The position numbers were made by a program, and so were the translations under genes. The notes under the pieces were generated by a model that made no database searches, was not told the origin of the DNA, and saw only the letters and a program-made list of their open reading frames with translations. Positions 11,489-62,204 of a DNA stretch of 64,000 nt are shown in pieces (the first letter of the stretch is position 1; each line of letters begins with the position of its first letter). This stretch comes from Halobiforma lacisalsi AJ5 (GTDB taxonomy: Archaea > Halobacteriota > Halobacteria > Halobacteriales > Natrialbaceae): contig NZ_CP019285.1 in the NCBI RefSeq assembly GCF_000226975.2, positions 3,100,001 through 3,164,000 on the forward strand, written 5' to 3'.

Positions 11489-11671
11489 ATGTCGAACGTT
11501 GCCAGACAGGATGACCCGGCCTCCGTTGAGCGGATCGAACACGACGAGTTCGATCCAGTCGGAACGCTCGCGCTCATCGCGTTCTACTTCGCCGTGCTGG
11601 TGCTGTTGTGGCTGTTCACGTACTTCGTGGAGTTTCTGGGGAACGTCCCGACGCCGGTGGTCGTCGCATGA
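11489..11671 (+). CDS. cbaD: Small subunit of ba3-type cytochrome c oxidase
   Basis: The 60-residue protein has one membrane segment (TLALIAFYFAVLVLLWLFTYFVEF, positions about 25-47) after an acidic, Arg-containing N-terminus. It is the first gene of a four-gene set matching the cbaDBAE order of the Natronomonas ba3 oxidase. It overlaps the subunit II gene by an ATGA. The role is presumably structural. The name is by position and size, since such short subunits diverge fast. Confidence 0.75.
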   Translation: MSNVARQDDPASVERIEHDEFDPVGTLALIAFYFAVLVLLWLFTYFVEFLGNVPTPVVVA

Positions 11672-12468
11672 GGATCCACCAGTACGAACGGGTGTGGTTG
11701 CTCGCGTCGATGGTGTTGATCGTCGGGTTCATCGCGACGATCACGTACGGCGCGGTGGGGCTTGGGATCACGATGGTCGACGATCGCGGGGCGACGATCG
11801 CGCCGGACGAGATCAACGAGGACGAGCGATTCGGCGACCCGCGAGTCGAGCAGGTGGGCGACGACGAGTACGAGGTCTACGCCGTCGCGATGACCTTCGC
11901 CTTCCAGCCGGATCCGATCGAGATCCCCGCCGACAGCGAGGTCACGTTCTACGTCACGAGCCGGGACGTGATTCACAGTTTCTACGTCGTCGGGACCAAC
12001 ACGAACACGATGGTCATCCCGGGGGAGATCTCGGTCGTGACCGTCGAGTTCGACGAACCCGGCGAGTACGGTCTCATTTGCACCGAGTACTGTGGTGCCG
12101 CCCACCACGAGATGGAGGGGCAACTGGCCGTCCTCGAGGACGAGGAGTTCGACCTGACCGAACTCGAGGTCGAGGCCCCCGACGAGGTCGAACCGGACGG
12201 GGAGATCGAGATCACCGCGACGGTGACCAACGGCCAACTCGAGGCGATCGAGGAGACCGTTACGGTGGAACTCGGCGACGAGACGCTCGAGGAGTCGGTC
12301 ACGGTCGAGGGGGACGACAGCGAGTCGGTGACGTTGACGGTCGATGCGGCCGACCTCGGCGAGGGCGATCACGACTGGACGGCGTCGGCGGGCGACCTGA
12401 CGGAGAGCGGTACGGTGTCGGTCGTCGAAGGGAGCGAAGACGACGCCGAGGGGGACGACGATGGCTAA
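11668..12468 (+). CDS. cbaB: Cytochrome c oxidase subunit II, CuA-binding
   Basis: An N-terminal membrane anchor (residues 8-33) is followed by a cupredoxin domain facing outside. The CuA ligands are complete: H103 in RDVIHSFYV, then C138, E140, C142, H146 and M149 in CTEYCGAAHHEM. CuA accepts electrons from the external donor, here probably a halocyanin. About 110 extra residues after the CuA site form an acidic Ig/CARDB-like domain, which many subunit II proteins lack. The start overlaps cbaD (ATGA), and the end overlaps cbaA by 8 bases. Confidence 0.92.
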   Translation: MRIHQYERVWLLASMVLIVGFIATITYGAVGLGITMVDDRGATIAPDEINEDERFGDPRVEQVGDDEYEVYAVAMTFAFQPDPIEIPADSEVTFYVTSRDVIHSFYVVGTNTNTMVIPGEISVVTVEFDEPGEYGLICTEYCGAAHHEMEGQLAVLEDEEFDLTELEVEAPDEVEPDGEIEITATVTNGQLEAIEETVTVELGDETLEESVTVEGDDSESVTLTVDAADLGEGDHDWTASAGDLTESGTVSVVEGSEDDAEGDDDG

Positions 12469-14209
12469 CGGCGATACCTTCGCCGACGCCTACCCCACCC
12501 AGGCACGCCACATCAGGGCGGCGTTCTGGGCGTCGTTCCTCTCGCTTGGCGTCGGCGCGTTCTTCGGCCTGATCCAGGCGCTCCACCGGACCGACATCCT
12601 TCGCGTGATCGAATCACAGACCTACTACACCGTGTTGACCGCACACGGGGTCTTCCTCGTGATTTCGTTTACCATCTTCTTTCTGGTCGGGGTCTTCCAG
12701 TGGGCGGTCACCGACAGCCTCGAGCGCCCGCCCGTCGACATGCGGTTCACGTGGGGCTGGTACGGCCTGATGTCACTCGGCGCGTCGCTCACGGCGTTTG
12801 CAATCCTCGCCGGCTTCACCGACTCGATCGACGTGAGCGCCGACGTGCTCTTTACCTTCTACGCGCCGCTGCAGGCCCATCCGCTGTTTTACGTCGGGCT
12901 GGTGGTGTTCGTCGTCGGTACCTGGCTCGCGGGGGCCGACTGGTTCCGTAGCTGGCTGGCCTGGAAGGGCGACAACCCCGGCGAGCGGATCCCGCTGCCG
13001 ACGTTCATGGTGTTGACGACGATGATTATGTGGTACATCTCCTCGATCGGCGTCGCCGTCGCGATCCTCGCCTTTATTCTGCCGTGGTCGCTCGAGCTCA
13101 CCGGGTCGCTGAACCCGACGTTGACCCGGACGCTGTTCTGGTACTTCGGGCATCCGGTGGTCTACTTCTGGCTGCTGCCGGCGTACCTGCTGTGGTACAT
13201 CCTCCTGCCGAAACTGGCGGGCGGACGGCTGTTCAGCGACCCGCTCGCCCGCGTCGTGTTCATCCTGTTCGTCCTGCTGTCGACGCCGGTCGGGATCCAT
13301 CACCAGTACCTCGACCCCGGCATCTCGGAGGGGTTCAAGTTCATCGCGATGACGAACACGATGTTCCTCCTGTTGCCGAGCCTGCTGACCGCGTTCACGA
13401 TCATCGCGAGCATGGAACACGGCGCGCGCCAGCGCGGCGGCGAGGGCTATTTCAACTGGCTGACCGCACTCCCCTGGCGCGACCCGGCCTTCACAGGGAT
13501 GGCGCTCGCAGGAATGATCTTCGCCTTCGGGGGGTTCACCGGCATCGTCAACGCCGGCATGAACATCAACTACCTCGTCCACAACACGCTGTGGGTTCCC
13601 GGCCACATCCACACGCAGGTCGGCACCGCGGCCGCGCTGACGTTCATGGCCGGCGCCTACTGGCTGGTTCCCCAGCTCACCGGCAATCGCCTCGTCGGCC
13701 GGAGCGTCGCGCTGGTACAGGTCGTGCTCTGGTTCGTCGGCATCGTCTTCATGACCAACTCGATGTACCGCGGCGGGCTGGTCGGCATGCCCCGCCGGAC
13801 GGCCGAACCGCAGTACGAGGGCTTCGAGTACGAGGTGGCTGCCGGCTCGGTCGGCGAACTCAACGCCCAGCTCGCGGTCGGCGGCACGCTCCTGTTCGTC
13901 TCCGCGATGCTCTTTCTCGCGCTCATGGTCCTGACCGCGTTCAACGGCGGGACGGAACCGATCGACGACGGGTCGATCCCGCCCGCGCTCTCGGGCCCGG
14001 AGGACTCCCCCGCCGTCCTCGACAACCTGAAACTGTGGGTCGCCATCGCGGCCGTCCTCGTCGTCATCGCCTACAGCTTCCCGCTCGCGAGTATCGTCTC
14101 GAGAGGTGGCCTGTTCGGCCCCGACATCGGTCCGATCCCGGTCGCGATCGACGCCGCGTCGACGGTAGCGCGGACGGCACTCGAGGCCGTCGCGGCCGTC
14201 GTTCGCTAA
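12461..14209 (+). CDS. cbaA: Cytochrome c oxidase subunit I, ba3 type
   Basis: This is the haem-copper catalytic subunit that reduces O2 to water and pumps protons. The 582-residue chain has about 13 membrane segments. Typical motifs are VLTAHGVFLVISF (low-spin haem His), GHPVVYFWLLPAYLLWY (CuB His with Tyr, lacking the Glu of A-type GHPEVY), the HHQYLDPG His pair, and VPGHIHTQVGTAA (haem ligands). The missing Glu and the sequence of this loop fit the B-family (ba3) enzymes. It is translated from an overlap with cbaB. Confidence 0.94.
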   Translation: MANGDTFADAYPTQARHIRAAFWASFLSLGVGAFFGLIQALHRTDILRVIESQTYYTVLTAHGVFLVISFTIFFLVGVFQWAVTDSLERPPVDMRFTWGWYGLMSLGASLTAFAILAGFTDSIDVSADVLFTFYAPLQAHPLFYVGLVVFVVGTWLAGADWFRSWLAWKGDNPGERIPLPTFMVLTTMIMWYISSIGVAVAILAFILPWSLELTGSLNPTLTRTLFWYFGHPVVYFWLLPAYLLWYILLPKLAGGRLFSDPLARVVFILFVLLSTPVGIHHQYLDPGISEGFKFIAMTNTMFLLLPSLLTAFTIIASMEHGARQRGGEGYFNWLTALPWRDPAFTGMALAGMIFAFGGFTGIVNAGMNINYLVHNTLWVPGHIHTQVGTAAALTFMAGAYWLVPQLTGNRLVGRSVALVQVVLWFVGIVFMTNSMYRGGLVGMPRRTAEPQYEGFEYEVAAGSVGELNAQLAVGGTLLFVSAMLFLALMVLTAFNGGTEPIDDGSIPPALSGPEDSPAVLDNLKLWVAIAAVLVVIAYSFPLASIVSRGGLFGPDIGPIPVAIDAASTVARTALEAVAAVVR

Positions 14210-48141: not shown

Positions 48142-48729
48142 CTACGGTCCGGCCTCGAGGACGGGGCGGGTCTTTTCGTTGAACAGCTCGATCGCCCGGG
48201 CGGCCTGCGATGGAAGCCCCGGCTGTGGGTCGGCCATCGCGGGTTCGGCGTCGGGGTCGGGGTCGGGCCACCCGACGACGACGCGGCCGATGTTACCCGC
48301 GATCTCGTGGGAGGTACAGACCTGCTGGGTGTCGACGTAGTCGTAGACACCTTCCTGGTCGAACGTCCGTTCGTAGGACGATCCCACGCCGGTCAGTCGG
48401 CGGCTTCCCCAGGTCTCGACGCCGTTGGGCGTTCGGTGAGGGCCGTGCCCGTCCTCGTGGTAGGCGGTGACGTCGTGGCGGCCCGTTTCGACGAGCCACT
48501 CGACGGTCCCGCCGGGAACGACGTGGACGATCTGTGGGTCGAACTCGGGGTGAGGCTGGGAGTTGATCGTAACCGTGACCCGTTCGGCGGGCGCTCCCAA
48601 CTCCCCGGCGTCTTCCGGGGCCTGCTCGTCGTCGTCGAAGCGATCCGCTGCAGTCTCGAGACACCCCCCGAAGGCGGCTATTGCGAGCGCAGACGATCGA
48701 AGCACGTGGCGGCGGGACGTGAGCGTCAT
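48142..48729 (-). CDS. Halocyanin-like blue copper lipoprotein, copy 1
   Basis: An N-terminal export signal with RRHVLRSSALAIAAFGGC (lipobox Cys 23) precedes a plastocyanin/halocyanin domain. Copper ligands are H85 in RHDVTAYH, C138 and H141 in VCTSHEIAGN. The fourth position, where halocyanins have Met (CxxHxxxxM), is N146. It should shuttle electrons outside the cell. The ATG is 44 bases downstream of the nirK stop. Copy 2 lies at 52255-52833 and shares 245 bp without a difference. Confidence 0.82.
   Translation of the reverse strand: MTLTSRRHVLRSSALAIAAFGGCLETAADRFDDDEQAPEDAGELGAPAERVTVTINSQPHPEFDPQIVHVVPGGTVEWLVETGRHDVTAYHEDGHGPHRTPNGVETWGSRRLTGVGSSYERTFDQEGVYDYVDTQQVCTSHEIAGNIGRVVVGWPDPDPDAEPAMADPQPGLPSQAARAIELFNEKTRPVLEAGP
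48293..48537. repeat. 245-bp identical block, copy 1 of 2
   Basis: Identical base for base to 52400-52644 inside the two halocyanin-like genes, while the ends of the same genes differ. It includes third-codon positions, indicating recent gene conversion or very recent duplication. Confidence 0.85.
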
Positions 48730-48773
48730 GGGTGTGGAAGTCGTAATTCGCCCGTCCCGGACGGGACTGGGGC

Positions 48774-49856
48774 TTACGGATCTTCGTCGTAGATTTCGGG
48801 GTTCTCTTCGCCCTCGACGTCGATGACGGCCAGGGCACCCTTGTGGACGACGCGGCTGAGCGCGTGGTCGACGATCTTGACCGGGCCGGGGACGGGGAAC
48901 TCCATCTCGCCGACCGTGGTCGTGCCGGGTGCGACCGGCGCGGTCTCGATGTTGCGGTCGGGGTCCGAGATGAGGTCGCCGTCGCGGTAGTAGCGGCTCC
49001 AGACGTTGCCGATCGGGTGGAGCGCACTGGTCAGGTTGGGGCCGCCGTTGGCGAAGTACACCCGGGCGGTCTCACCCGTGTTGGCCTTCATCGGTCCGAG
49101 GCCGTCCGGGGTGAAGCCGTAGGCCTGGCCGTTGAATGTCACGTAGGTGGGATCCTCCGACTGCATCGCGTCGAAGTCGAAGCCGTGGTGTCCCGCCTCG
49201 CCGGCTTCACCGTCGGTGTAGATCTCGTGCTGGCCGAGGTAGAACTCGTGGTCGACCTCGGGCAGCCCTTCCTCGGGTTCGACGAGGATCGTACCGAACA
49301 TGCCGGCGCTGATGTGGTGATCCATGTTCGGGACCGCACAGTGGTAGATGAACGCGCCGGCGTACTCGGCCGTGAAGCTGATTTCGGCCGCGTTGTCGCC
49401 CGGCGCGATGGTCGTCGCGTCGGCACCGCCGCCGGGGCCGTAGACCGCGTGGAAGTCCACGTTGTGGAGGTCCATGTTGATGTCCTCCGGGACCTCGAAG
49501 CGGAGGTTGACCCGGTCGCCACGGCGGACCCGGACCATCGGTCCCGGGATCTGCCCCCCGAAGGTCATGAAGTCGAAGGTGACCCCCGGCTCGATCTCGG
49601 CCGTCATCTGTTCGGTCTCGAGTGTGATGTCGTGTTCCCGGGGCTCGTCCCAGTCGACAGGGTCCGGAACGTCGGTCGGATCTCGAGCGATCCGATCGAC
49701 GTCGACAGGCTCCGCTGCCGGCAGTCCCTCCTCACTTTCGGTTGTCGTGCTGCTCCCCGACACGTCGTCGTTGCCGAGACAGCCGGCTACCGCTACAGCG
49801 CCGGTTGCCCCGATCGCCTGCATGAACTGCCGTCGGTTGGCCTGAATCGTGGTCAT
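48774..49856 (-). CDS. nirK: Copper-containing nitrite reductase, copy 1
   Basis: NirK reduces nitrite to nitric oxide outside the membrane. It begins with a Tat-lipoprotein signal (NRRQFMQAIGATGAVAVAGC). Two cupredoxin domains follow. Motifs are LHNVDFHAVYGPGGG (type 2 Cu His and the catalytic Asp), IYHCAVPNMDHHISAGMFG (type 1 Cu Cys, His, Met and type 2 His) and ALHPIGNVWSRYY. GAGGAG lies about 8 bases before the ATG at 49856. A CGAA-N4-TTCG-type site (one mismatch) lies 78 bases upstream. Confidence 0.93.
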   Translation of the reverse strand: MTTIQANRRQFMQAIGATGAVAVAGCLGNDDVSGSSTTTESEEGLPAAEPVDVDRIARDPTDVPDPVDWDEPREHDITLETEQMTAEIEPGVTFDFMTFGGQIPGPMVRVRRGDRVNLRFEVPEDINMDLHNVDFHAVYGPGGGADATTIAPGDNAAEISFTAEYAGAFIYHCAVPNMDHHISAGMFGTILVEPEEGLPEVDHEFYLGQHEIYTDGEAGEAGHHGFDFDAMQSEDPTYVTFNGQAYGFTPDGLGPMKANTGETARVYFANGGPNLTSALHPIGNVWSRYYRDGDLISDPDRNIETAPVAPGTTTVGEMEFPVPGPVKIVDHALSRVVHKGALAVIDVEGEENPEIYDEDP

Positions 49857-49933
49857 TGTTCTTCTCCTCATTCGAATAAACACCCCTCATATGTAGAACA
49901 GTCTCGTTAATTCTACACGAGGGGGAATACTGG

Positions 49934-52173: not shown

Positions 52174-52185
52174 CGAATATGTTCG
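52174..52185 (-). promoter_or_regulatory. CGAA-N4-TTCG site, Sco1 operon
   Basis: CGAATATGTTCG on the plus strand (CGAACATATTCG on the other), 70 bases upstream of the Sco1-like ATG. It is the same sequence as the regulator's own site at 56028-56039. Confidence 0.6.
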
Positions 52186-52254
52186 GCCCCGTTCCGACTT
52201 TCGTGGCGAGCATCCGATCCGGACCGCGGCGACGTCACCGTCGTCGCACCTCCT

Positions 52255-52833
52255 CTACGGTCCGGCCTCGAGGACGGGGCGGGTCTCCTCGTTGAACAGC
52301 TCGATCGCCCGGGCGGCCTGCGATGGAAGCTCCGGCTGTGGGTCGGCCATCGCGGGTTCGTCGTCGGGATCGGGCCAGCCGACCACGACGCGGCCGATAT
52401 TACCCGCGATCTCGTGGGAGGTACAGACCTGCTGGGTGTCGACGTAGTCGTAGACACCTTCCTGGTCGAACGTCCGTTCGTAGGACGATCCCACGCCGGT
52501 CAGTCGGCGGCTTCCCCAGGTCTCGACGCCGTTGGGCGTTCGGTGAGGGCCGTGCCCGTCCTCGTGGTAGGCGGTGACGTCGTGGCGGCCCGTTTCGACG
52601 AGCCACTCGACGGTCCCGCCGGGAACGACGTGGACGATCTGTGGCTCGAACTCGGGGTAGGGCTGAGAGTTCGCCGTGACCGTGATCCGATCGGTCGGCG
52701 ACCCCAGTTCGCCGGTACCGTCGCCCTCCGCACCGCCGAGGCGATCCGCTGTGCTCTCGAGACAGCCGACGAGAGCGATGCCGACCGCGGATGCGGACGC
52801 CTGGAGGACGGTACGGCGGGTAACTGGTGTCAT
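52255..52833 (-). CDS. Halocyanin-like blue copper lipoprotein, copy 2
   Basis: Same architecture as copy 1. Its signal (RRTVLQASASAVGIALVGC) and linker differ, but the blue copper domain is nearly identical, including RHDVTAYH and VCTSHEIAGN with Asn at the axial ligand position. The length is 192 residues. It lies 60 bases after the second nirK, in the same order as copy 1. It has no TATA of its own that I could find, so it probably shares the nirK transcript. Confidence 0.82.
   Translation of the reverse strand: MTPVTRRTVLQASASAVGIALVGCLESTADRLGGAEGDGTGELGSPTDRITVTANSQPYPEFEPQIVHVVPGGTVEWLVETGRHDVTAYHEDGHGPHRTPNGVETWGSRRLTGVGSSYERTFDQEGVYDYVDTQQVCTSHEIAGNIGRVVVGWPDPDDEPAMADPQPELPSQAARAIELFNEETRPVLEAGP
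52400..52644. repeat. 245-bp identical block, copy 2 of 2
   Basis: Identical to 48293-48537. The bases on both sides (g/a at the left edge, g/c at the right edge) differ between copies. Confidence 0.85.
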
Positions 52834-52893
52834 GGTTCTGGAGTGGGTATCGGTCGAATGCGGTGCTCTGCGTGGCGAGCGGGAGGTTCCGCT

Positions 52894-53988
52894 CTATTGG
52901 GGATCCTCCTCGTAGACCTCGGGGTTCTCCTCGCCCTGGACGTCGATGACGCCGAGTGCACCCTTGTGGACGACGCGGCTGAGCGCGTGGTCGACGATCT
53001 TGACCGGGCCGGGGACGGGGAACTCCATCTCGCCGGCCGCGGTCGTACCGGGTGCGACCGGCGCCGTCTCGATGTTGTTGTCGGGTTCGGACAGCAGGTC
53101 GCCGTCGCGGTAGAAGTCACTCCAGACGTTCCCGATCGGGTGCCAGGAGCTCAGGAGGTTCGGACCGCCGTTGGCGAAGTACACTCGGGCGGTGTCACCG
53201 ACTTCGGCTTCCATCGGTCCGACGCCGTTCTCCGTGAAGGCGTAGGCCTGGCCGTTGAACACCACGTAGGTGGGATCTTCCCTCTTCATCGCGTCGAAGT
53301 CGAAGCCGTGGTGGCCCTCCTCGCCGGCCTCGCCTTCGGTGTAGATCTCGTGCTGACCGAGGTAGAACTCGTGGTCGACCTCGGGCAGCCCGTCTTCGGG
53401 CTCGACGAGGATCGAACCGAACATCCCGGAGCTGATGTGCTGGTCCATGTTCGGGACCGCACAGTGGTAGATGAACACGCCCGCGTAGTCAGCCGTAAAG
53501 CTGATCTCTGCGGGGTCGTCCCCCGGCGCGATCGTCGTCGCGTCGGCACCGCCGCCGGGGCCGTAGACCGCGTGGAAGTCCACGTTGTGCATCTCGATGT
53601 TCATGTCGTCCGGGACGTCGAACGTGAGGTTGACTCGATCGCCCCGTCGGACCCGGACCATCGGTCCCGGCACCTGCCCCTCGAAGGTCATGTAGTCGAA
53701 CGTGACGCCGGGCTCGATCTCGGCTGTCAGCCGCTCGGTCTCGATCGTGATGTCGTGTTCGCGGGGCTCGTCCCAGTCGACCGGATCCGGGATGTCCGTC
53801 GGGTCACGGGCGATCCGATCGACGTCGACGCTCTCCGCGGCCGACAGTCCCGCCTGGTTTCCGCTGTCTTCGGACGTCGTTTCGGTCGTAGCCGATCCAT
53901 CGTTCTCGAGACAGCCGGCGACCGCGAGTGCACCCGCTGCCCCGATCCCCTGAAGAAACCGTCGTCGGTTAGCGTCGAATTGGGTCAT
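52894..53988 (-). CDS. nirK: Copper-containing nitrite reductase, copy 2
   Basis: The same Tat-lipoprotein signal type (NRRRFLQGIGAAGALAVAGC) and both copper centres are complete: LHNVDFHAVYG context (MHNVDFHAVYGPGGG), IYHCAVPNMDQHISSGMFG and SWHPIGNVWSDFY. It is highly similar to copy 1 and carries the same GAGGAG-type SD. A CGAACCCGTTCG site begins 78 bases upstream of the ATG at 53988, the same spacing as in copy 1. Whether both copies are used at different oxygen or nitrite levels is open. Confidence 0.93.
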   Translation of the reverse strand: MTQFDANRRRFLQGIGAAGALAVAGCLENDGSATTETTSEDSGNQAGLSAAESVDVDRIARDPTDIPDPVDWDEPREHDITIETERLTAEIEPGVTFDYMTFEGQVPGPMVRVRRGDRVNLTFDVPDDMNIEMHNVDFHAVYGPGGGADATTIAPGDDPAEISFTADYAGVFIYHCAVPNMDQHISSGMFGSILVEPEDGLPEVDHEFYLGQHEIYTEGEAGEEGHHGFDFDAMKREDPTYVVFNGQAYAFTENGVGPMEAEVGDTARVYFANGGPNLLSSWHPIGNVWSDFYRDGDLLSEPDNNIETAPVAPGTTAAGEMEFPVPGPVKIVDHALSRVVHKGALGVIDVQGEENPEVYEEDPQ

Positions 53989-54065
53989 TGGTCTTCTCCT
54001 CATTTCCCGATTGGGGGGTGGTACATACATCGGTCTCGACGATTCTACGGACCAGGGAACGCAAC

Positions 54066-54077
54066 CGAACCCGTTCG
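54066..54077. promoter_or_regulatory. CGAA-N4-TTCG site between nirK copy 2 and the hydrolase
   Basis: CGAACCCGTTCG sits 78 bases before the nirK ATG and 62 bases before the divergent hydrolase ATG, so it could control both. Confidence 0.6.
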
Positions 54078-54138
54078 ACGGAATCGAACGGTATTCCCAG
54101 AAACTGGGATTGAAATGCCGATCCGTCGTAGTAATCCC

Positions 54139-55041
54139 ATGGTAACGCGGCCTCCAGAACCGTCGATATCGGCACTGCTGCCCTCGAGCGAGGCCGAATC
54201 AGTCGTTCGAACGGTCAACGGCGTTCGGCTGCACGCGGTGGTAGCCGGCGACCCGGACGACCCACTGGTGGTGCTGTTACACGGGTTCCCGGAGTTCTGG
54301 TACGGGTGGCGGGACCAGATCGAGCCGCTCGTCGAGGCCGGCTACCGCGTTCTGGTGCCGGACCAGCGAGGTTACAACCGCAGCGATAAACCATTACACG
54401 TACGCGCGTATCGCCGGTCGACACTCTCGCAGGACATCGTTGAACTGATCGAAAGCGAGGGGGAAGACGTCGCCCACGTCGTCGGACACGACTGGGGCGG
54501 GATGGTCGCCTGGGAACTCGGCCTTCGCCGTCCCGACGTCGTCGACCGACTCGTCGTCGCCAACGCGCCCCATCCGACGGCATACCTGCGACAGTGGCTG
54601 TCGAACCCGGAACAGATGCGGCGGAGCGGGTACGCTTACGTCTTCCAGTTGCCGTGGCTACCCGAACGGCTCTGTCGATACGACGAGTTCCGCGTCCTCG
54701 AGCGAGGCCTCAGGGAGAGCGCCGCACCGGGAACGTTCTCAGACGCCGACTTCGAGCGCTATCGCCGGGCGTGGCAACGCGACGGTGCGCTTACCGGAAT
54801 GCTGAACTGGTACCGTGCCAGCGGCCGGTATCCGGCAGCGATGTCGCGCGGACACGTGGACGTCCCGACACTCGTTGCCTGGGGAGAAGCCGACCGGGCG
54901 CTCGTCCCGTCGCTCGCGATCGACAGTTACGAGTTCTGTCGGAACGGCCGCCTCGAGTTGTTCCCGGAAACGAGCCACTGGATCCAACACGAGGCGGCCG
55001 AGCGGTTCACCGACATGCTGGTCGACCACCTTTCAGGCTGA
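54139..55041 (+). CDS. Alpha/beta hydrolase, epoxide-hydrolase-like
   Basis: Strand-loop motifs are VVLLHGFPEFWYGWRDQIE (oxyanion HGFPE), DQRGYNRSDKP, and the nucleophile elbow VGHDWGGMVAW, where the nucleophile is Asp. The late Asp lies in AWGEADRALV and the His in SHWIQHEA. An Asp nucleophile and HGFPE point to epoxide hydrolase or haloalkane dehalogenase rather than lipase. It sits between nirK copy 2 and DUF2249 genes, with no clear link to denitrification. Confidence 0.85.
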   Translation: MVTRPPEPSISALLPSSEAESVVRTVNGVRLHAVVAGDPDDPLVVLLHGFPEFWYGWRDQIEPLVEAGYRVLVPDQRGYNRSDKPLHVRAYRRSTLSQDIVELIESEGEDVAHVVGHDWGGMVAWELGLRRPDVVDRLVVANAPHPTAYLRQWLSNPEQMRRSGYAYVFQLPWLPERLCRYDEFRVLERGLRESAAPGTFSDADFERYRRAWQRDGALTGMLNWYRASGRYPAAMSRGHVDVPTLVAWGEADRALVPSLAIDSYEFCRNGRLELFPETSHWIQHEAAERFTDMLVDHLSG

Positions 55042-55042
55042 G

Positions 55043-55312
55043 CTAGGCGTCTGGATCCCAGATGACGGTCACCACCTCGTCCTCGAGTTCGACGGTCTCG
55101 TGAGCGTAGCCTCGATCCTCGAGTTTCGGGAAGAGGAACTGCGGGACGCGGTCGTTTCGCTGGACCAGCACGGTCCCGTCGTCGAGGTCCACGAGTGTCT
55201 CGAGAGTGTTCTTGAGCGGTTCCGGCGGACCCAGCGATCGGACGTCGATGACCTCGCGCGGGCTGTCGCCGGGCGCGTCGGTACGGTCGACGGCGGAAGC
55301 GTACGACTGCAT
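55043..55312 (-). CDS. DUF2249-domain protein 1
   Basis: The 89-residue soluble protein has the DUF2249 pattern: PREVIDVRSLGPPEPL, LETLVDLDDGTVLVQRNDRVPQFLFPKLEDRGYAHET. DUF2249 proteins have a small alpha/beta fold resembling SirA/TusA and often accompany nitrate/nitrite respiration genes in prokaryotes. The function is not established. The ATG at 55312 is used; a start at 55357 is possible. Confidence 0.78.
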   Translation of the reverse strand: MQSYASAVDRTDAPGDSPREVIDVRSLGPPEPLKNTLETLVDLDDGTVLVQRNDRVPQFLFPKLEDRGYAHETVELEDEVVTVIWDPDA

Positions 55313-55422
55313 ACGCGTACTGACGCGTCCGACTGGCGTAGCTCCCGTGCCGTACATGTTAGGCTTCGGATTCGCAGTTCGAACGGAACGAGAAGCGACT
55401 GTAAGGGCGGACGAAGCGGTCG

Positions 55423-55656
55423 TTAGGCCTCTTGCTTGGGGAACTTGGCGACGAACTCGTCGGTGTCGACGCGTTCGACCTCGTAGCCGTCGGCGTCGAA
55501 GCTCTCGACTTCCGCCTGGAACTCGTAGAACAGCGGTTTGGGTTCGTGATCGTTGACGATCGTCAGCGTCTCACCAGGCTCGAGGTCCTGAAACTCTTCG
55601 TGGATTGTGGGGTGGCGGTTCACCGGCGGGATGTCCCTGACGTCGAGTCGCGTCAT
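55423..55656 (-). CDS. DUF2249-domain protein 2
   Basis: The 77-residue protein reads TRLDVRDIPPVNRHPTIHEEF, then DLEPGETLTIVNDHEPKPLFYEFQAE, with the conserved H-P and D-HEPKPL elements of DUF2249. It may bind haem or metal, or act as a redox/sulfur carrier like the SirA fold, but this is unproven. A CGAACCCGTTCG site lies 41 bases upstream. Confidence 0.82.
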   Translation of the reverse strand: MTRLDVRDIPPVNRHPTIHEEFQDLEPGETLTIVNDHEPKPLFYEFQAEVESFDADGYEVERVDTDEFVAKFPKQEA

Positions 55657-55696
55657 GCGAATGCTGGTGGGTCTCGGAGCGTCCTTTGCCTTTGGC

Positions 55697-55708
55697 CGAA
55701 CCCGTTCG
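55697..55708. promoter_or_regulatory. CGAA-N4-TTCG site, DUF2249 gene 2
   Basis: CGAACCCGTTCG, 41 bases before the ATG at 55656. It has the same sequence as the nirK copy 2 site and nearly the same distance as the DUF2249 gene 3 site. Confidence 0.6.
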
Positions 55709-55714
55709 GGATAT

Positions 55715-55942
55715 TCACGCGGGCTCGATGAGGACTCGCCAGAGGTCCTCATCTTGCCGGTCGCTCTCGTGCGTGTAGCCGCGCGAATCGAGTACTTCGT
55801 AGAGGGGTTCCGGCTCGAACGGAGCGAGCAACTCCAGGCGTTCGCCGTCCTCGAGGGAGCCGACAGCAGACATGATGTCATCGAACGGCGGGCCGTCGAT
55901 CTCGCGCACGTCGATCGTCCTGTCGACTGATTTCGTGGGCAT
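55715..55942 (-). CDS. DUF2249-domain protein 3
   Basis: The 75-residue protein reads RTIDVREIDGPPFDDIMSAV and DGERLELLAPFEPEPLYEVLDSRGYTHES, with the DUF2249 layout. The ATG at 55942 is supported by the TATA box GTAAATATC centred about 33 bases upstream. It is the third DUF2249 gene in a row; the others are at 55043 and 55423. Confidence 0.82.
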   Translation of the reverse strand: MPTKSVDRTIDVREIDGPPFDDIMSAVGSLEDGERLELLAPFEPEPLYEVLDSRGYTHESDRQDEDLWRVLIEPA

Positions 55943-55970
55943 CGCCCCCGACTTCGGCCTGCTCGGGATT

Positions 55971-55993
55971 GGATATTTACTCGAACGTGTTCG
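55971..55993 (-). promoter_or_regulatory. TATA box and CGAA-N4-TTCG site, DUF2249 gene 3
   Basis: The site CGAACGTGTTCG (55982-55993) directly precedes a minus-strand TATA GTAAATATC (55971-55980), with 40 bases from the site to the ATG. This close apposition to TATA is what an activator that helps recruit TBP/TFB would need. Confidence 0.6.
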
Positions 55994-56027
55994 TGCCGTC
56001 GGAGTTCCCACGCTGTAGGAATTACGC

Positions 56028-56039
56028 CGAACATATTCG
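56028..56039 (+). promoter_or_regulatory. CGAA-N4-TTCG site, regulator gene
   Basis: CGAACATATTCG, about 9 bases before the TATA box GTATATGG (56049-56056) and 39 bases before the ATG at 56078. The regulator probably controls itself. Confidence 0.6.
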
Positions 56040-56077
56040 TCGCCACGGGTATATGGCCACGTTTAGAAGGTATCCGT

Positions 56078-56755
56078 ATGGCCCAAGCGACGCTCACTAT
56101 CACGCTGCCCGAGCAGGTCTGGATCGAACAGATTTCGACCGAGTTTCCGGCGGCGACGTTCCGCGTCCTCGCAGCGGTCCCCGGCACCGACAGCGGGTTC
56201 GCACTCGTTCGGGTAACGGGACCGGAGGTCCCCGAGGTGGTCGACGCCATGAACGACCACTCCCAGATCACGGAGCTAACCCTCGCCCAGTGGAGCGAGA
56301 ACGAGGCGACGATCCACTTCGAGACGACGGCTCCGCTGTTGATGTTCTCGTCCCAGGAGTCGGGGATGCCGATCGAACTCCCCGTCGAGATCCAGGACGG
56401 CGAGGCGACGATCGAGGTCACTGGCTCTCGTGACCGGTTGGCGGAACTGGCCGAGCAACTCGAGCACTTCGGTCTCCAGTACCGCATCGAGAACGTTCGC
56501 GAGCGCCTCCACGAGAGCCAACTACTCTCTGAACGCCAACTCGAAGTCGTCGCCGCTGCCGTAGAGCAGGGGTACTACGACACGCCCCGCGAGTGCTCCC
56601 TGACTGAACTGGCCGAACACCTCGACATCGCGAAATCGACCTGTAGCGAGACCCTCCACCGTGCCGAGGAGGCGATTATCAAACGGTTCGTCGAGGACCT
56701 GCCCGCCCTCGACGACGGCGAAGAGCCCCTCGAGGAGCAACTGGCAGTGAGCTGA
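56078..56755 (+). CDS. HTH_10-type transcription regulator (NarO/DmsR/Bat-like)
   Basis: The 225-residue protein ends in the HTH_10 domain typical of haloarchaeal Bat, DmsR and NarO: LSERQLEVVAAAVEQGYYDTPRECSLTELAEHLDIAKSTCSETLHRAEEAIIKRFVEDL. The N-terminal 145 residues form an unnamed sensor part. It carries no cysteines before the HTH, unlike NarO, which has a Cys-rich N-terminus. Given the shared sites around it, it is the best candidate to control the island. It is leaderless with TATA at 56049-56056. Confidence 0.85.
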   Translation: MAQATLTITLPEQVWIEQISTEFPAATFRVLAAVPGTDSGFALVRVTGPEVPEVVDAMNDHSQITELTLAQWSENEATIHFETTAPLLMFSSQESGMPIELPVEIQDGEATIEVTGSRDRLAELAEQLEHFGLQYRIENVRERLHESQLLSERQLEVVAAAVEQGYYDTPRECSLTELAEHLDIAKSTCSETLHRAEEAIIKRFVEDLPALDDGEEPLEEQLAVS

Positions 56756-57110
56756 CTCGGAGGTCGTCGGAGTCGGGGCCGTTCCAGTTTGCACTGACGG
56801 TGGAGACCCGCCTGCTCGAGCAGCCCAACCCATCGTAAGACGACTTTTCTTTGCGTTTGCGGCGGATTTGCGACGCAGCCTCGTAACGAGATGCGGTGTC
56901 ATCGGACACGAAACGTAACTGATCTTGGGCTCCGCAGTTAATATATACCCGAACATATTCGCACCGATTCTCACCGGCTGGAAATCGGCTCTATACTTCA
57001 TCCGCATATGGTTGTGAATCCGGGCTAGGGGACACAGATGAACATATTAAAGTGGGTACCGGCGAGTTACTGCGCTACGAAAACGCCGTGTACAGAGGTG
57101 TTCTGATCTG
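56756..57110. other. Control region between regulator and Fe-S operon
   Basis: This 355-base stretch holds the CGAACATATTCG site (56950-56961) with a minus-strand TATA TATATATTAA (56938-56947), and a second partial site TGAACATATTAA (57039-57050) before the Fe-S operon. A minus-strand frame of about 50-76 codons after the minus TATA overlaps the regulator's end and is not convincing as a gene. Confidence 0.5.
56938..56961. promoter_or_regulatory. Shared site with minus-strand TATA
   Basis: CGAACATATTCG (56950-56961) sits beside TATATATTAA read on the minus strand (56938-56947), the same motif-TATA layout as at the DUF2249 gene 3 promoter. It would start a transcript running toward the regulator gene's 3' end. 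Confidence 0.5.
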
Positions 57111-58793
57111 ATGAGTACGGACGACGAATCATTCCATCCGCTCGGAAACGAGTGGGAAAACGAACTGGAAACGATGCTCGACGATACCGAGTACGATACG
57201 GAACTCGGTATGGAGATGGCCCAGGACGCGTTTCGCGTCACGAAGGGCGAGTTGTCGGAAGCCGAATTCCACGAGAAGTATCACGAAGACGTGATGGAGG
57301 AGTTCGGCGAGGACAACCGCCCGACTGCGGAGGCGTTCGAAGCGGCCCAGGAAGAAGCGAAAGGGGCCGCCTCCCGAATGCTCTCGAAGTTCGAGGGCGA
57401 CGGGGAGGAGGGCCGCCGCGAAGCCATGAAGAAGATGGGCGCTGGCGCGGCCGCCGTCGGCCTCGGCGCGTGGGGCACGGTCGACGACGGGAACGAGCCC
57501 GACCCGGAACCCGACGTCGCCGCCGCCGCTGAAGAGGAAGAAGACCCCTACGAGCACGACCGCACCCAGTGGGGGATGGCCCTCGACCTCGAGCGCTGTG
57601 ACGGTTGCCTCTCCTGTGTTACTGCCTGTGCGACGGAGAACCAGCTCGACAGCGGGGTCAACTGGATGTACGTCCTCGAGTTCGAGGACCCGGGTGAGTC
57701 TGCGAACACGAATTCCTCACTTGCCCGCACGAGCGGACCGAGTCCGAACCGCCTCATCCGGCCGTGTCAGCACTGTACTGACGCGCCGTGTGAGAAGGTC
57801 TGTCCGACGACCGCCCGCCACACCCGCGACAAGGACGGCCTCGTCCTGACCGACTACGACGTCTGTATCGGCTGCCGATACTGTCAGGTTGCCTGTCCCT
57901 ACGGCGTCAACTACTTCCAGTGGGACGAACCCGACGTCTCGACCGAAGACATCGCGGAGCACCACGAGGAACTCGGTCAGGGCGATCACATGACCGACGA
58001 TCGCGATCGCTGGGTCGACAGCCGCGCGCCCCGCGGTGTCATGAGCAAGTGTACGATGTGTCCCAGCCGACAGGACGGTCACATGGGTGAGGAATACGTC
58101 GGCACTACGGCCTGCCAGCAGGCCTGCCCGCCCGGTGCGATCCAGTTCGGTAACATGAGCGACGAGGAAAGCGACCCCAAGAAGTACGCCGCGAACCCGA
58201 GTCGGGGTCGGACGCTCGAGCGTATCTCGCCGCCGTCGGCCGACGCGCTCGCGGAGTCGCTCGACGGCGCCGACGACGACCTCGAGTCGGTTCTCGAGGC
58301 GACCGACCTCGACGAGGACACGCTCGCACTGATGAAGGCCGTCGAGATCACCGGCGAACTCGGCACCGGCGACGGCAAACTCGCCGGATACGAACGCGAG
58401 TTCCAGGAAGCGCTCGACGCGCTTGCCGACCACGGTCTCGACCTCGACAGCGAAGACGTGCTCGTCGAACTCGACCTCGCCGACGAGACCGACGAGGACG
58501 AGGAGTTCGACGGACCAAGCGTCGAGGACGCCCAGCAGCGTCTGGAAGCGTTCACCGGCTCGCCCGAGTCGAACTTCCGGCTCCTCGAGGACATGGGCAC
58601 CAACCCGAACATCGTCTACCTCGGTCAGGAGCCCGGCCCGCATGCCGAGCAGACCGAACCGACCGGCGCGACGAGCCTCGAGTACGAACAGCTCAGCTAC
58701 GAAGCGGTCAACGGCGAAACGATCGACCTCGTCGACAACCGCAAAGAGGTGCTCGACGAGGAAACCGTCGGTGACACGGGGTGGTCGCTGTGA
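57111..58793 (+). CDS. Four-cluster Fe-S protein (NrfC/PsrB/DmsB-like) with internal Tat signal
   Basis: Residues 1-100 form an acidic domain with no Cys. A twin-arginine motif with a hydrophobic stretch follows at residues 101-121 (GRREAMKKMGAGAAAVGLGA), so export is possible with the first 100 residues left inside or cut. Four Cys clusters follow: CDGCLSCVTAC, CQHCTDAPCEKVC, CIGCRYCQVAC and CTMC...ACQQAC, enough for four [4Fe-4S] clusters. About 200 acidic residues close the chain. Such proteins link NrfD-type quinol oxidases to a catalytic subunit, but no molybdopterin subunit is present here. Confidence 0.85.
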   Translation: MSTDDESFHPLGNEWENELETMLDDTEYDTELGMEMAQDAFRVTKGELSEAEFHEKYHEDVMEEFGEDNRPTAEAFEAAQEEAKGAASRMLSKFEGDGEEGRREAMKKMGAGAAAVGLGAWGTVDDGNEPDPEPDVAAAAEEEEDPYEHDRTQWGMALDLERCDGCLSCVTACATENQLDSGVNWMYVLEFEDPGESANTNSSLARTSGPSPNRLIRPCQHCTDAPCEKVCPTTARHTRDKDGLVLTDYDVCIGCRYCQVACPYGVNYFQWDEPDVSTEDIAEHHEELGQGDHMTDDRDRWVDSRAPRGVMSKCTMCPSRQDGHMGEEYVGTTACQQACPPGAIQFGNMSDEESDPKKYAANPSRGRTLERISPPSADALAESLDGADDDLESVLEATDLDEDTLALMKAVEITGELGTGDGKLAGYEREFQEALDALADHGLDLDSEDVLVELDLADETDEDEEFDGPSVEDAQQRLEAFTGSPESNFRLLEDMGTNPNIVYLGQEPGPHAEQTEPTGATSLEYEQLSYEAVNGETIDLVDNRKEVLDEETVGDTGWSL

Positions 58794-60157
58794 GCACGAA
58801 GACTCCCTCCGAGGCCGACATCCTTCGACCGATCAACACGTTCACGAAGAAGTATATCGCGCTGTTCGCCGTGTGTGCACTGGCCTTCGGCGCGTTCCTC
58901 GTCGCCTGGGCCTACCAGCTCCAGAAGGGGCTGGTCGTCACGGGCCTCGGCGACTGGGGCTCCGGTGGCGGCGTCACCTGGGGCCTGTACATCGGCGCGT
59001 TCATCTGGTGGGTCGGTATCGCACACGGCGGGATCATCCTCTCGGCCGCAGTGCGTCTGCTCGGGATGGACCGCTACATGCCGGTCGCCCGCCTCGCAGA
59101 ACTGCTAACGATCGCCGGCCTCTCCGCGGCCGGGTTCTACATCCTGGTCCACATGGGTCGCCCGGACCGGATGGTCACCAGCGTCCTTGGCCACTACCAC
59201 ATCACGGTTAACAACTCGCCGCTGGTGTGGGACGTGACGGTCATTACCGCCTACTTCGTCCTGACCGCCACCTATCTCGCCCTGACGCTCCGGTACGACA
59301 TCACGCGACTGCGCGACCAGCTGCCGGACCTCTTCGAGCCGGTCTACAAGATCATGACGATCGGTTACACCCGAGAGGAAGACCGGATCATCGAACGGAT
59401 GGTCTGGTGGCTCGCGCTGGCGATCATCATCATGGCCCCGCTCCTGCTCCACGGTGGCGTCATTCCGTGGCTGTTCGCCGTGCTGCCGGGCATGCCCGCC
59501 TGGTTCGGCGCCGTCCAGGGGCCGCAGTTCCTCACTATCGCACTGACCTCGGCGATCAGCGGCGTGATCCTCGTCGCCTACGCCTTCCGTCGTGCGTACG
59601 ACTGGGAACACATCATGACCGACGACGTCTTCCGCGGCCTGCTACTGTGGCTCGGGTTCTTCTGCCTGCTGTTCCTCTGGCTCCAGCTCCAGCAGAACGT
59701 CACCGGGCTGTTCAAGGCGCCGCTCTCGACGAGCACCGCACAGGGTGCCACTCTCGACCACCCGATCTACCTGCTCTCGATGGGCCTCGTGTTCGCGACC
59801 CTTGCGTACATCTTCGCACAGACGATCCGCCCGTCGCTGTTCACGAAGGCTCGAGCGATCCTCTCGGGGATCGTCGTGCTGACCGCGACCTTCCTCGAGA
59901 AGCTGCTGTTCGTCGTCGAAGGGTTCATGCACCCCGAATTCGAGATCTACGCCGCGACGCCCGGGGAGTACTTCCCGAGTGCCATCGAGTGGCTCTCGCT
60001 TGCCGGCACGATCGGCATGGTAGTGCTGATCTTCCTGTCGGTCTCGAAGGTCGTTCCGGTCGTCGAACTTCACGCGATCGAACACCTTCGTGGCGACCAC
60101 GGCCACGAACACGAGGAACACGGTGAAACCGCCGCAGAGAAGGAGGTGAAAGCATGA
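58790..60157 (+). CDS. NrfD/PsrC-like quinol-interacting membrane protein
   Basis: About nine to ten membrane helices match the NrfD/PsrC family, with GIAHGGIILSAAVRLLG and GFYILVHMGRPDRM as family-like elements. NrfD proteins take electrons from menaquinol or give them to it. The His/Glu-rich tail (HGHEHEEHGETAAEKE) is on one side of the membrane. It overlaps the Fe-S gene (GTGA) and the next small gene (ATGA), so all three are coupled. The GTG at 58790 is used. Confidence 0.88.
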   Translation: MSTKTPSEADILRPINTFTKKYIALFAVCALAFGAFLVAWAYQLQKGLVVTGLGDWGSGGGVTWGLYIGAFIWWVGIAHGGIILSAAVRLLGMDRYMPVARLAELLTIAGLSAAGFYILVHMGRPDRMVTSVLGHYHITVNNSPLVWDVTVITAYFVLTATYLALTLRYDITRLRDQLPDLFEPVYKIMTIGYTREEDRIIERMVWWLALAIIIMAPLLLHGGVIPWLFAVLPGMPAWFGAVQGPQFLTIALTSAISGVILVAYAFRRAYDWEHIMTDDVFRGLLLWLGFFCLLFLWLQLQQNVTGLFKAPLSTSTAQGATLDHPIYLLSMGLVFATLAYIFAQTIRPSLFTKARAILSGIVVLTATFLEKLLFVVEGFMHPEFEIYAATPGEYFPSAIEWLSLAGTIGMVVLIFLSVSKVVPVVELHAIEHLRGDHGHEHEEHGETAAEKEVKA

Positions 60158-60483
60158 GTCCGACCCTCACGTCCATCGCCGCAACGCTTGCGTTCCTGTC
60201 CCCGGAACTGCTGTATCACGGATACGACGGGACCGAGGGCCTGACCGGCTTCCCGAACATCGGTACCTGGCTGATCTTCGCGGTGATCCTGGTACCGATC
60301 TACATCATGGTGATCGCGTGGTTCGTCGGTGAACCGCGAGACACCAAGTCGGGACTGCTCGGCGTCTCGTATCTCGTCGGCCTGACGACGTCGATGTGGG
60401 TCGGGATGTTCTTCCTGACCATGATCATCGGCATCGTCTTCTACGGCGGGATGCCCGAACCGATCGGCGCGACCGGCCCGTAA
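60154..60483 (+). CDS. Small membrane protein of the NrfD operon
   Basis: The 109-residue protein has three membrane helices (WLIFAVILVPIYIMVIAWFV, GLLGVSYLVGLTTSMWVG, FFLTMIIGIVFYG). It overlaps the NrfD gene. Its conserved elements are HGYDGTEGLTGFPNIGTW and MPEPIGATGP at the end. A near copy stands at 60665-60979. I do not recognise the family; a small subunit of the NrfC/NrfD complex is the simplest reading. Confidence 0.75.
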   Translation: MSPTLTSIAATLAFLSPELLYHGYDGTEGLTGFPNIGTWLIFAVILVPIYIMVIAWFVGEPRDTKSGLLGVSYLVGLTTSMWVGMFFLTMIIGIVFYGGMPEPIGATGP

Positions 60484-60664
60484 CGGACGGCCTCGCGGTC
60501 GCTTTCTCTTCGGTTTCGCCGTTCGATTTTTCGTCTTCCCGTAGCTACCGGACTCGAGTATCGAACGCTTCGGGACGGCCACCTGCCCGTCTTTTCTGCA
60601 CCCGATCCCAACCCCTTGCACGTGCAGGCGGTAGCGAAACCACGGAAGACGTGGTACTCGGGCT

Positions 60665-60979
60665 ATGCTTTCCCTCGCTGCCGCGAGAGCCGTGACCGCG
60701 ACGGTGCTGTACCACGGCTACGAGGGGACCCAGGGGTTGACCGGGTTCCCGAACACGGGGACCTGGCTGATTTTCGCGGTGATTCTGGTGCCGATCTACG
60801 TCATGGTGATCGCGTGGTTCGTCGGGACCCCGCGGCACACCAAGACCGGACTGCTCGGCGTCACCTACCTCGTCGGTCTGACCTCGGGGATGTGGATCAG
60901 CATGTTCTTCCTGACCGTCATCATCGGCATCGTCTTCTACGGCGGCGCGCCGGAGCCGATCGGGGCGACCGGTCCGTAG
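60665..60979 (+). CDS. Second copy of the small membrane protein
   Basis: It is 104 residues and closely matches the first copy over the whole membrane part, with VLYHGYEGTQGLTGFPNTGTWLIFAVIL and EPIGATGP, and DNA identity is high there. Only the first 12 or so residues differ. It stands alone, 181 bases after the operon, so it may have its own control. Tandem duplication is likely. Confidence 0.72.
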   Translation: MLSLAAARAVTATVLYHGYEGTQGLTGFPNTGTWLIFAVILVPIYVMVIAWFVGTPRHTKTGLLGVTYLVGLTSGMWISMFFLTVIIGIVFYGGAPEPIGATGP

Positions 60980-61112: not shown

Positions 61113-62204
61113 ATGAGTATCACAGAACACGAACTCAAGATCAAACTCGAGGAGATCGAGGATCCCGACATCGGCGAGGACATCGTCACCCTCGGGTTAG
61201 TCAACGACGTCGTGATCGACGACGAGACCGCCCGCATCTCGCTCGCGCTCAACGCTCCCTACGCGCCCTCCGAGATGGAACTCGGCAACCGGGTGCGTGA
61301 AGTCTGTGACGAGGTCGGCCTCGAGGCCGACCTCCGGGCCCACGTCGGCCAGGAACACGGCTTCGACGACGAAGTGCTGCCCCGCGTTCGCAATGTGATC
61401 GCCGTCTCCTCCGGGAAGGGTGGCGTCGGCAAGACCACGGTCGCCGCGAACCTCGCGGCCGGCCTCGAGAAACGCGGCGCGATGGTCGGCCTGCTCGACG
61501 CCGACATCCACGGCCCGAACATCCCGAAGATCCTGCCGGTCGAGGGCGAACCGGGCGTGATGCCCAACGAGGACATCGTCCCGCCCCGCTCGGACGGCGT
61601 CCGCGTCATCAGCATGGGCTTCATGACCGAGGAGGACGACGACCCCGCGATCCTCCGTGGGCCGATGGTCAACAAGTTCATGATGAAGTTCCTCGAGGGC
61701 GTCGAGTGGGGTCGCCTCGACTACCTCGTGGTCGACCTGCCGCCGGGGACCGGCGACGCGACGCTGAACCTCCTGCAGTCGATGCCCGTCACGGGATCGG
61801 TCGTCGTCACGACGCCCCAGGAGATGGCGCTCGAGGACACCCGCAAGGGAGTCCAGATGTTCAACAAGCACGACACGCCCGTCCTGGGCGTCGTCGAGAA
61901 CATGAGTTCGTTCGTCTGTCCGTCCTGTGGCGACCAGCACGGCCTGTTCGGGACCGACGGTGCGGACGACATCGTCGACCGGTACGACGTGCCCCTGCTG
62001 GGCAAGATCCCGATCCACCCGGACTTCGGCGCGGACGGGAGCGAGGGACCGATCGTCAAGGACGACGACAGCGAGGTCCAGGAGCCGGTCGAGAACGTGG
62101 TCGCCGAGATCGCCGACCGGATCGGCGAGGCCAACCGTCGCACGGTCGCCGAGCACACCTCGGACGAACCGGCGGACGTTCTGCCGACCGAGACCGAGGA
62201 CTGA
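61113..62204 (+). CDS. Mrp/NBP35-family Fe-S carrier ATPase
   Basis: An N-terminal MIP18/DUF59 domain (residues 1-85) precedes the P-loop ATPase. The deviant Walker A SGKGGVGKTT lies at residues 100-109, and the cluster-binding CPSC is at 269-272. Mrp proteins assemble or transfer [4Fe-4S] clusters, which is suggestive next to a four-cluster Fe-S protein, although Mrp is a general housekeeping factor. The 363-residue length is normal. It is leaderless or has a short leader. Confidence 0.92.
   Translation: MSITEHELKIKLEEIEDPDIGEDIVTLGLVNDVVIDDETARISLALNAPYAPSEMELGNRVREVCDEVGLEADLRAHVGQEHGFDDEVLPRVRNVIAVSSGKGGVGKTTVAANLAAGLEKRGAMVGLLDADIHGPNIPKILPVEGEPGVMPNEDIVPPRSDGVRVISMGFMTEEDDDPAILRGPMVNKFMMKFLEGVEWGRLDYLVVDLPPGTGDATLNLLQSMPVTGSVVVTTPQEMALEDTRKGVQMFNKHDTPVLGVVENMSSFVCPSCGDQHGLFGTDGADDIVDRYDVPLLGKIPIHPDFGADGSEGPIVKDDDSEVQEPVENVVAEIADRIGEANRRTVAEHTSDEPADVLPTETED

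Follow-up and report, generated by a model that had tools for sequence, protein, structure and literature searches.

The cytochrome bc1 complex is reported absent from part of the haloarchaea, and the route by which quinol electrons reach halocyanin there is called unresolved, both in the 2012 genome paper on Natrialba magadii (PMC3403918) and in the work of Pfeiffer and Dyall-Smith (2021; PMC8305020), the latter of which gives one third as the share of haloarchaea without bc1. Among the closest described systems, the bacterial Alternative Complex III (ActABCDEF) was covered by a 2023 survey that listed no archaeal ActB (PMC10100899), and QrcCD is described as a quinone reductase made of an iron-sulfur (FeS) protein and an NrfD subunit (PMC13059093). 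Here we analyze a 64,000-nucleotide stretch of the genome of Halobiforma lacisalsi AJ5 (NZ_CP019285.1, positions 3,100,001 to 3,164,000; hereafter the window, from whose first letter coordinates are counted), which encodes an FeS protein, an NrfD-like subunit, a small membrane protein and a P-loop protein in one operon. Judging from sequence, we consider it likely that this gene set takes the place of bc1, as a menaquinol:halocyanin oxidoreductase in the membrane that would be an analogue of Alternative Complex III without haem. About a quarter of the haloarchaea that we sampled are bc1-less, including most Natrialbaceae and Natronomonas, and the set is a specific, genetically testable candidate for the quinol-to-halocyanin step that the literature calls unresolved. 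Its features are the following.

57111..58793, + strand, FeS protein of 560 aa with four predicted [4Fe-4S] clusters, electron-transfer subunit
57135..57329, + strand, Ferredoxin_N domain PF16947 (FeS residues 9-73, E 1.7e-35)
57414..57482, + strand, internal twin-arginine (Tat-type) signal RREAMKKMGAGAAAVGLGAWGTV, after the Ferredoxin_N domain of FeS
58781..60157, + strand, NrfD/ActC-like 10-helix quinol-binding subunit (PF03916, E 7.5e-21)
60154..60483, + strand, small membrane protein, first copy, directly after NrfD in a conserved position
60665..60979, + strand, small membrane protein, second copy, 74-77% identical to the first
61113..62204, + strand, Mrp/ApbC-type P-loop protein, fourth conserved gene of the operon (sequence motifs)

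From the FeS gene through the first small-protein gene, gene ends overlap by 4-13 bp; alignment with orthologs places the NrfD start probably at 58790. The fourth product, which we take to be of Mrp/ApbC type from its own sequence motifs and the established knowledge of the Mrp family, is a probable Fe-S cluster carrier. A preliminary description of the locus had proposed an operon at 57111-60483, beside nirK, that encodes a four-cluster FeS protein, an NrfD-like module and a three-helix protein, with a second copy of the last and without a molybdopterin subunit. That gene content, the second copy and the missing subunit were borne out by domain matches and by tblastn against the window, where the best hit to a molybdopterin subunit had an E value of 0.15; Pfam likewise detected no molybdopterin domain in FeS. 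The operon, however, runs beyond 60483 into the Mrp/ApbC gene, and the small protein looks, by prediction, like one of two long transmembrane helices, not three. No family match was found for the small protein (a weak, sub-cut-off Pfam match of the second copy to Bax1-I was disregarded), and CxxCH is absent from the translated proteins of the operon. FeS and NrfD are modules of the CISM family (Mo/W bis-MGD enzymes). FeS carries Fer4 domains and 16 Cys in four cluster motifs (residues 163-173, 219-231, 252-262 and 314-339), which are kept in nearly all orthologs, and by sequence it matches the C-terminal part of ActB, ArrB and PsrB in the PDB. There is a single NrfD at the locus, whose closest named relative is that of Halobiforma haloterrestris (99%; Natrialbaceae) and whose nearest close paralog lies 1.5 Mb off; the genome holds a dispersed second pair, in which tpiA adjoins the NrfD gene (76% identity) and the FeS protein (identity about 60%) is encoded elsewhere. 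In this dispersed FeS paralog (L018:8228-9649) 15 rather than 16 cluster Cys are present, one in the fourth group being replaced by Asp, and one cluster may be altered.

The presence of the set is nearly complementary to that of bc1. In a survey of 391 haloarchaeal genomes, in which cytochrome b was scored by PF00033, the set was found in 96 of the 99 genomes without cytochrome b compared to 33 of the 292 with it (odds ratio 251, p 3e-58, Fisher test). H. lacisalsi itself lacks both PF00032 and PF00033. Within its family the set was present in 80 and absent from 0 genomes without cytochrome b, versus 10 and 11 of those with it; outside the family the corresponding numbers were 16 and 3 versus 23 and 248. 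Two of the three genomes that have neither cytochrome b nor the set also lack COX2, and the remaining one, G365, is a draft of 91% completeness. Genomes without bc1 are spread over several separate lineages, and COX2 is kept in 42 of the 45 that were checked for it. Several subunit II proteins of the H. lacisalsi genome bear the CuA motif, one of them in the window:

11608..14209, + strand, cox genes for subunit I and for a subunit II that bears the CuA motif CTEYCGAAHHEM

Since bc1-less genomes keep COX2 and these subunits have the CuA motif, a one-electron donor appears to be needed, and the arrangement of some loci points to halocyanin. In these, halocyanin genes sit directly upstream of the FeS gene on the same strand. 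Halovenus carboxidivorans and SHR40 have a tandem pair of halocyanin genes whose products bear Tat/lipobox signals, at gaps to FeS of 45 and 60 bp. Natronobiforma cellulositropha has at least one upstream halocyanin gene, as do two further Natrialbaceae and several metagenome-assembled genomes; in these, gaps reach roughly 110 bp and the FeS start is less sure.

A third line of evidence comes from NrfD, which by sequence and predicted fold corresponds to ActC of the bacterial Alternative Complex III. Only ActC chains matched it in the PDB (phmmer, E down to 6e-18), and its predicted model (pLDDT 81, ten long helices) aligned by Foldseek to all four ActC structures with TM scores of 0.79-0.83, compared to 0.55-0.59 for ActF. 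The ActC residues His139, Ser164 and Asp169 align with His124, Ser146 and Asp151 of NrfD. His124 is present in 54/54 set-type NrfD proteins, whereas all 10 divergent relatives, mostly linked to molybdopterin subunits, have Asp or Ser; in DmsC, mutation at this quinone-site position stops quinol oxidation, and in PsrC it stops polysulfide respiration (PMC8076601). FeS was modelled with low confidence (pLDDT 65), so that little weight falls on its fold matches. Together, bc1 complementarity, halocyanin operons and ActC kinship strongly support the earlier suggestion of a quinol-to-cupredoxin path that replaces bc1 without a molybdopterin subunit.

The anatomy of the set, its conservation, the bc1 complementarity, the halocyanin operons and the promoter motif described below are computational results, whereas we infer the direction of electron flow, the partner, FeS export, halocyanin reduction and formation of a complex, which could be combined as follows. 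NrfD would bind menaquinol close to the outer side of the membrane (His124, Ser146, Asp151). FeS would fold in the cytoplasm and then be exported by the Tat route, using an internal signal that it owes to a lost molybdopterin subunit. It would dock on NrfD and hand on electrons one at a time, by way of its four clusters, to a halocyanin anchored to the membrane on the outside, which would feed CuA oxidases; for the window copy at low oxygen, halocyanin would also feed NirK and other copper enzymes related to it. Possible roles of the remaining proteins are to stabilise NrfD, for the small subunit, and to load clusters, for Mrp; any proton pumping by the set is conjecture.

Conservation was surveyed in 145 haloarchaeal genomes (nirK, small protein and close NrfD homologs) and by reading about 50 neighbourhoods of 14-20 kb each. 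Of the 145 genomes, 51 encode the small protein and 50 have close NrfD homologs. A constant core, FeS-NrfD-small protein-Mrp in this order, is shared by nearly all of the close homologous loci, which come from several families, far above chance; nirK, SCO1, DUF2249 and cupredoxin neighbours are nearly confined to part of one family. In the window, these neighbours and their promoter motifs include:

48774..49883, - strand, second nirK (G000:C1:3148780-3149706)
52174..52185, no strand assigned, motif CGAATATGTTCG upstream of the SCO1 gene
52255..52833, - strand, cupredoxin (halocyanin/plastocyanin-like)
52894..54030, - strand, nirK, copper nitrite reductase (TIGR02376, 369 bits, cut-off 296)
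54066..54077, no strand assigned, motif CGAACCCGTTCG upstream of nirK
56028..56039, no strand assigned, motif CGAACATATTCG upstream of the HTH_10 regulator gene
56078..56755, + strand, HTH_10 (bat/DmsR/NarO-type) regulator (PF04967, E 5e-19)
56950..56961, + strand, denitrification-type operator CGAACATATTCG upstream of the FeS operon

Each of the two nirK genes adjoins a cupredoxin gene. NirK and blue copper neighbours had been described before, and both hold, except for the label of halocyanin: the neighbouring proteins match that family weakly and are without a plain C-H-M copper motif. The cupredoxin-nirK pair is tandemly duplicated (48142-49883 and 52255-54030), the very similar copies flanking an SCO1-thioredoxin-CcdA group. 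Small DUF2249-type proteins are encoded beside nirK at 55043-55357 and 55715-56011; in Haloferax mediterranei, induction of denitrification genes is likewise accompanied by that of DUF2249 proteins (PMC11218638).

The motif that the preliminary description had noted as shared is real. CGAA-N4-TTCG, the motif mutated in the nos and nor promoters of Haloferax mediterranei (PMC10062603), occurs 11 times in the window compared to 2.7 expected (0 of 100 shuffles reached 11), and six of these sites lie within 52174-56961 (4.8 kb). It precedes FeS at 24/57 loci, versus 0.4 expected, and in most set loci of the H. lacisalsi family the distance between it and the FeS gene downstream hardly varies. Because this published motif is found upstream of both nirK and the FeS operon, the window copy probably serves denitrification; it looks like a low-oxygen/denitrification isoform, the other copies being presumably constitutive. 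One could go further and take the whole set for a quinol:cupredoxin pathway dedicated to NirK, as the common operator and the nirK and cupredoxin genes that lie near the set in some genomes would suggest. We consider this unlikely, although it survives better than the other alternatives. Such proximity is limited to about 12 of the 145 genomes, about 20 genomes have the set and no nirK, and nirK is found in 28 of the 50 genomes with the set versus 46 of the 95 without it (p 0.48), by which an obligate partnership is rejected at genome level. Moreover, CGAA-N4-TTCG was absent, among the 57 loci scanned, at the dispersed copies and in bc1-less lineages that have one copy, for example Natronomonas and Halovenus. 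A NirK-dedicated pathway thus suits the role of the window isoform, not that of the family, and the restriction to nitrite respiration suggested earlier was not supported when conservation with nirK across haloarchaea was checked.

Several points weigh against a menaquinol:halocyanin oxidoreductase that replaces bc1. The case for it is computational. Absence of bc1 appears in perhaps four or five lineages, and because genomes share ancestry, the evidence is less independent than the Fisher p values suggest. Thirty-three genomes hold both bc1 and the set, and in the NrfD tree all members of one set-type subclade come from bc1-keeping genomes; therefore, not every member is a bc1 replacement. 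Genome G128 carries the set with no COX2 match, and only a minority of loci have halocyanin in the operon. At the residue level, ActC Asp253 is Leu in NrfD and the gate Arg is Lys, while the CIGCRYC motif of FeS retains Cys where ActB has Thr, so that the equivalent of the ActB [3Fe-4S] cluster has four Cys. Finally, a 2018 paper on related natronoarchaea suggests quinol oxidases and reports no Alternative Complex III homologues (PMC6176080). The subclade confined to bc1-keeping genomes comprises L086, L087, L089-L096, L204 and L207-L214, some members having the denitrification motif.

If quinol oxidases served bc1-less haloarchaea in general, the set would have another role and its association with bc1 loss would be phylogenetic hitchhiking, an effect that dominance of the sample by one family could favor. 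We regard this as improbable: the association stands both inside and outside that family and in several separate lineages, and the H. lacisalsi oxidase subunits II have CuA motifs.

The oxidoreductase proposed here must also be set against the family's origin among molybdopterin enzymes. A molybdopterin subunit beside the set was rejected for close homologs: one was seen within about 9 kb at 1 of about 50 close loci, apparently in a separate operon. The earlier consideration that homologous sets might usually sit beside such a subunit thus applies to some divergent relatives (31-43% identical; L099, L100, L102 and L103), which are housed in molybdopterin operons, and fails for the close ones. 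At the lone close locus (L081, genome G098) a separate operon encodes a molybdopterin subunit, NrfD and TorD, with the set several kb downstream. In haloarchaeal operons of the dimethyl sulfoxide (DMSO) reductase type, Ferredoxin_N is a separate small protein upstream of the molybdopterin subunit (an 86-aa gene in L019/L020), and the FeS proteins lack both it and the Tat signal, which are there on separate subunits; at least 51 of 54 set-type FeS orthologs have the internal Tat signal. Because of this distribution, and because a small membrane protein follows NrfD in the divergent operon L099, the set would appear to descend from a molybdopterin enzyme after loss of the catalytic subunit, FeS having taken over the export signal. 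Divergent FeS-NrfD sets without a molybdopterin-subunit match were also seen at L097, L098 and L101 (G045, G119 and G046), with a Tat-bearing FeS of 17-20 Cys and, at L097 and L098, a 70-aa membrane protein after NrfD; these are possibly a separate family. G045 keeps cytochrome b, and the bc1-minus label that L097 bore in the NrfD tree was therefore wrong, with no bearing on the conclusions.

The same origin, the divergent relatives and the further molybdopterin operons of the H. lacisalsi genome would fit an ordinary CISM enzyme with a split locus, its molybdopterin subunit being encoded elsewhere. This is very unlikely, as those operons that were read in detail, including those of H. lacisalsi, encode FeS and NrfD subunits themselves, Ferredoxin_N and Tat lie on the FeS protein of the set, and a split enzyme does not account for halocyanin operons or bc1 complementarity. 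Still less credible is reverse flow, in which an outside donor reduces menaquinone as in QrcCD (PMC13059093). In its favor, FeS resembles QrcC and NrfD resembles DsrP, but these matches fall below cut-off, and membership in DsrO/DsrP or Qrc was rejected. Against it, no conserved donor enzyme lies nearby, and the tie to bc1 loss and CuA oxidases is strong.

On balance we lean, with less assurance than for the oxidoreductase function itself, towards a haem-free archaeal class of complex III: an ex-molybdoenzyme minus its catalytic subunit, with Tat moved to FeS and His instead of Asp in the quinone site, whose menaquinol:halocyanin activity let several haloarchaeal lineages discard bc1. If true, this would be a complex III analogue without haem, and it would show clearly that removal of a catalytic subunit can give rise to a respiratory complex. 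Our comparison with the literature covers open-access texts, and a proposal in a subscription journal could predate ours.

Among known systems, the set resembles Alternative Complex III in its 10-helix NrfD-type quinol subunit with the His, Ser and Asp of ActC, in an FeS protein akin to the C-terminal part of ActB, and in that it would replace bc1. It differs in being archaeal, in lacking the multihaem ActA and monohaem ActE cytochromes c, the molybdopterin-like domain of ActB and a second NrfD (ActF) at the locus, in its four-Cys cluster where ActB has [3Fe-4S], and in its proposed acceptor, a blue copper protein. With haloarchaeal DMSO-reductase-type operons (Ferredoxin_N protein, molybdopterin subunit, FeS, NrfD and TorD) it shares the FeS/NrfD modules, Ferredoxin_N and the Tat signal, but it is without molybdopterin subunit and TorD chaperone, it carries Ferredoxin_N and Tat on FeS, and its quinone site has His rather than Asp. 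QrcABCD and DsrMKJOP have a similar FeS-NrfD redox pair with different partner subunits. The cytochrome bc1/b6f complex (petABD) of other haloarchaea, whose proteins are unrelated to those of the set, probably has the same function, from menaquinol to halocyanin, and in most lineages the two are near mutual exclusion.

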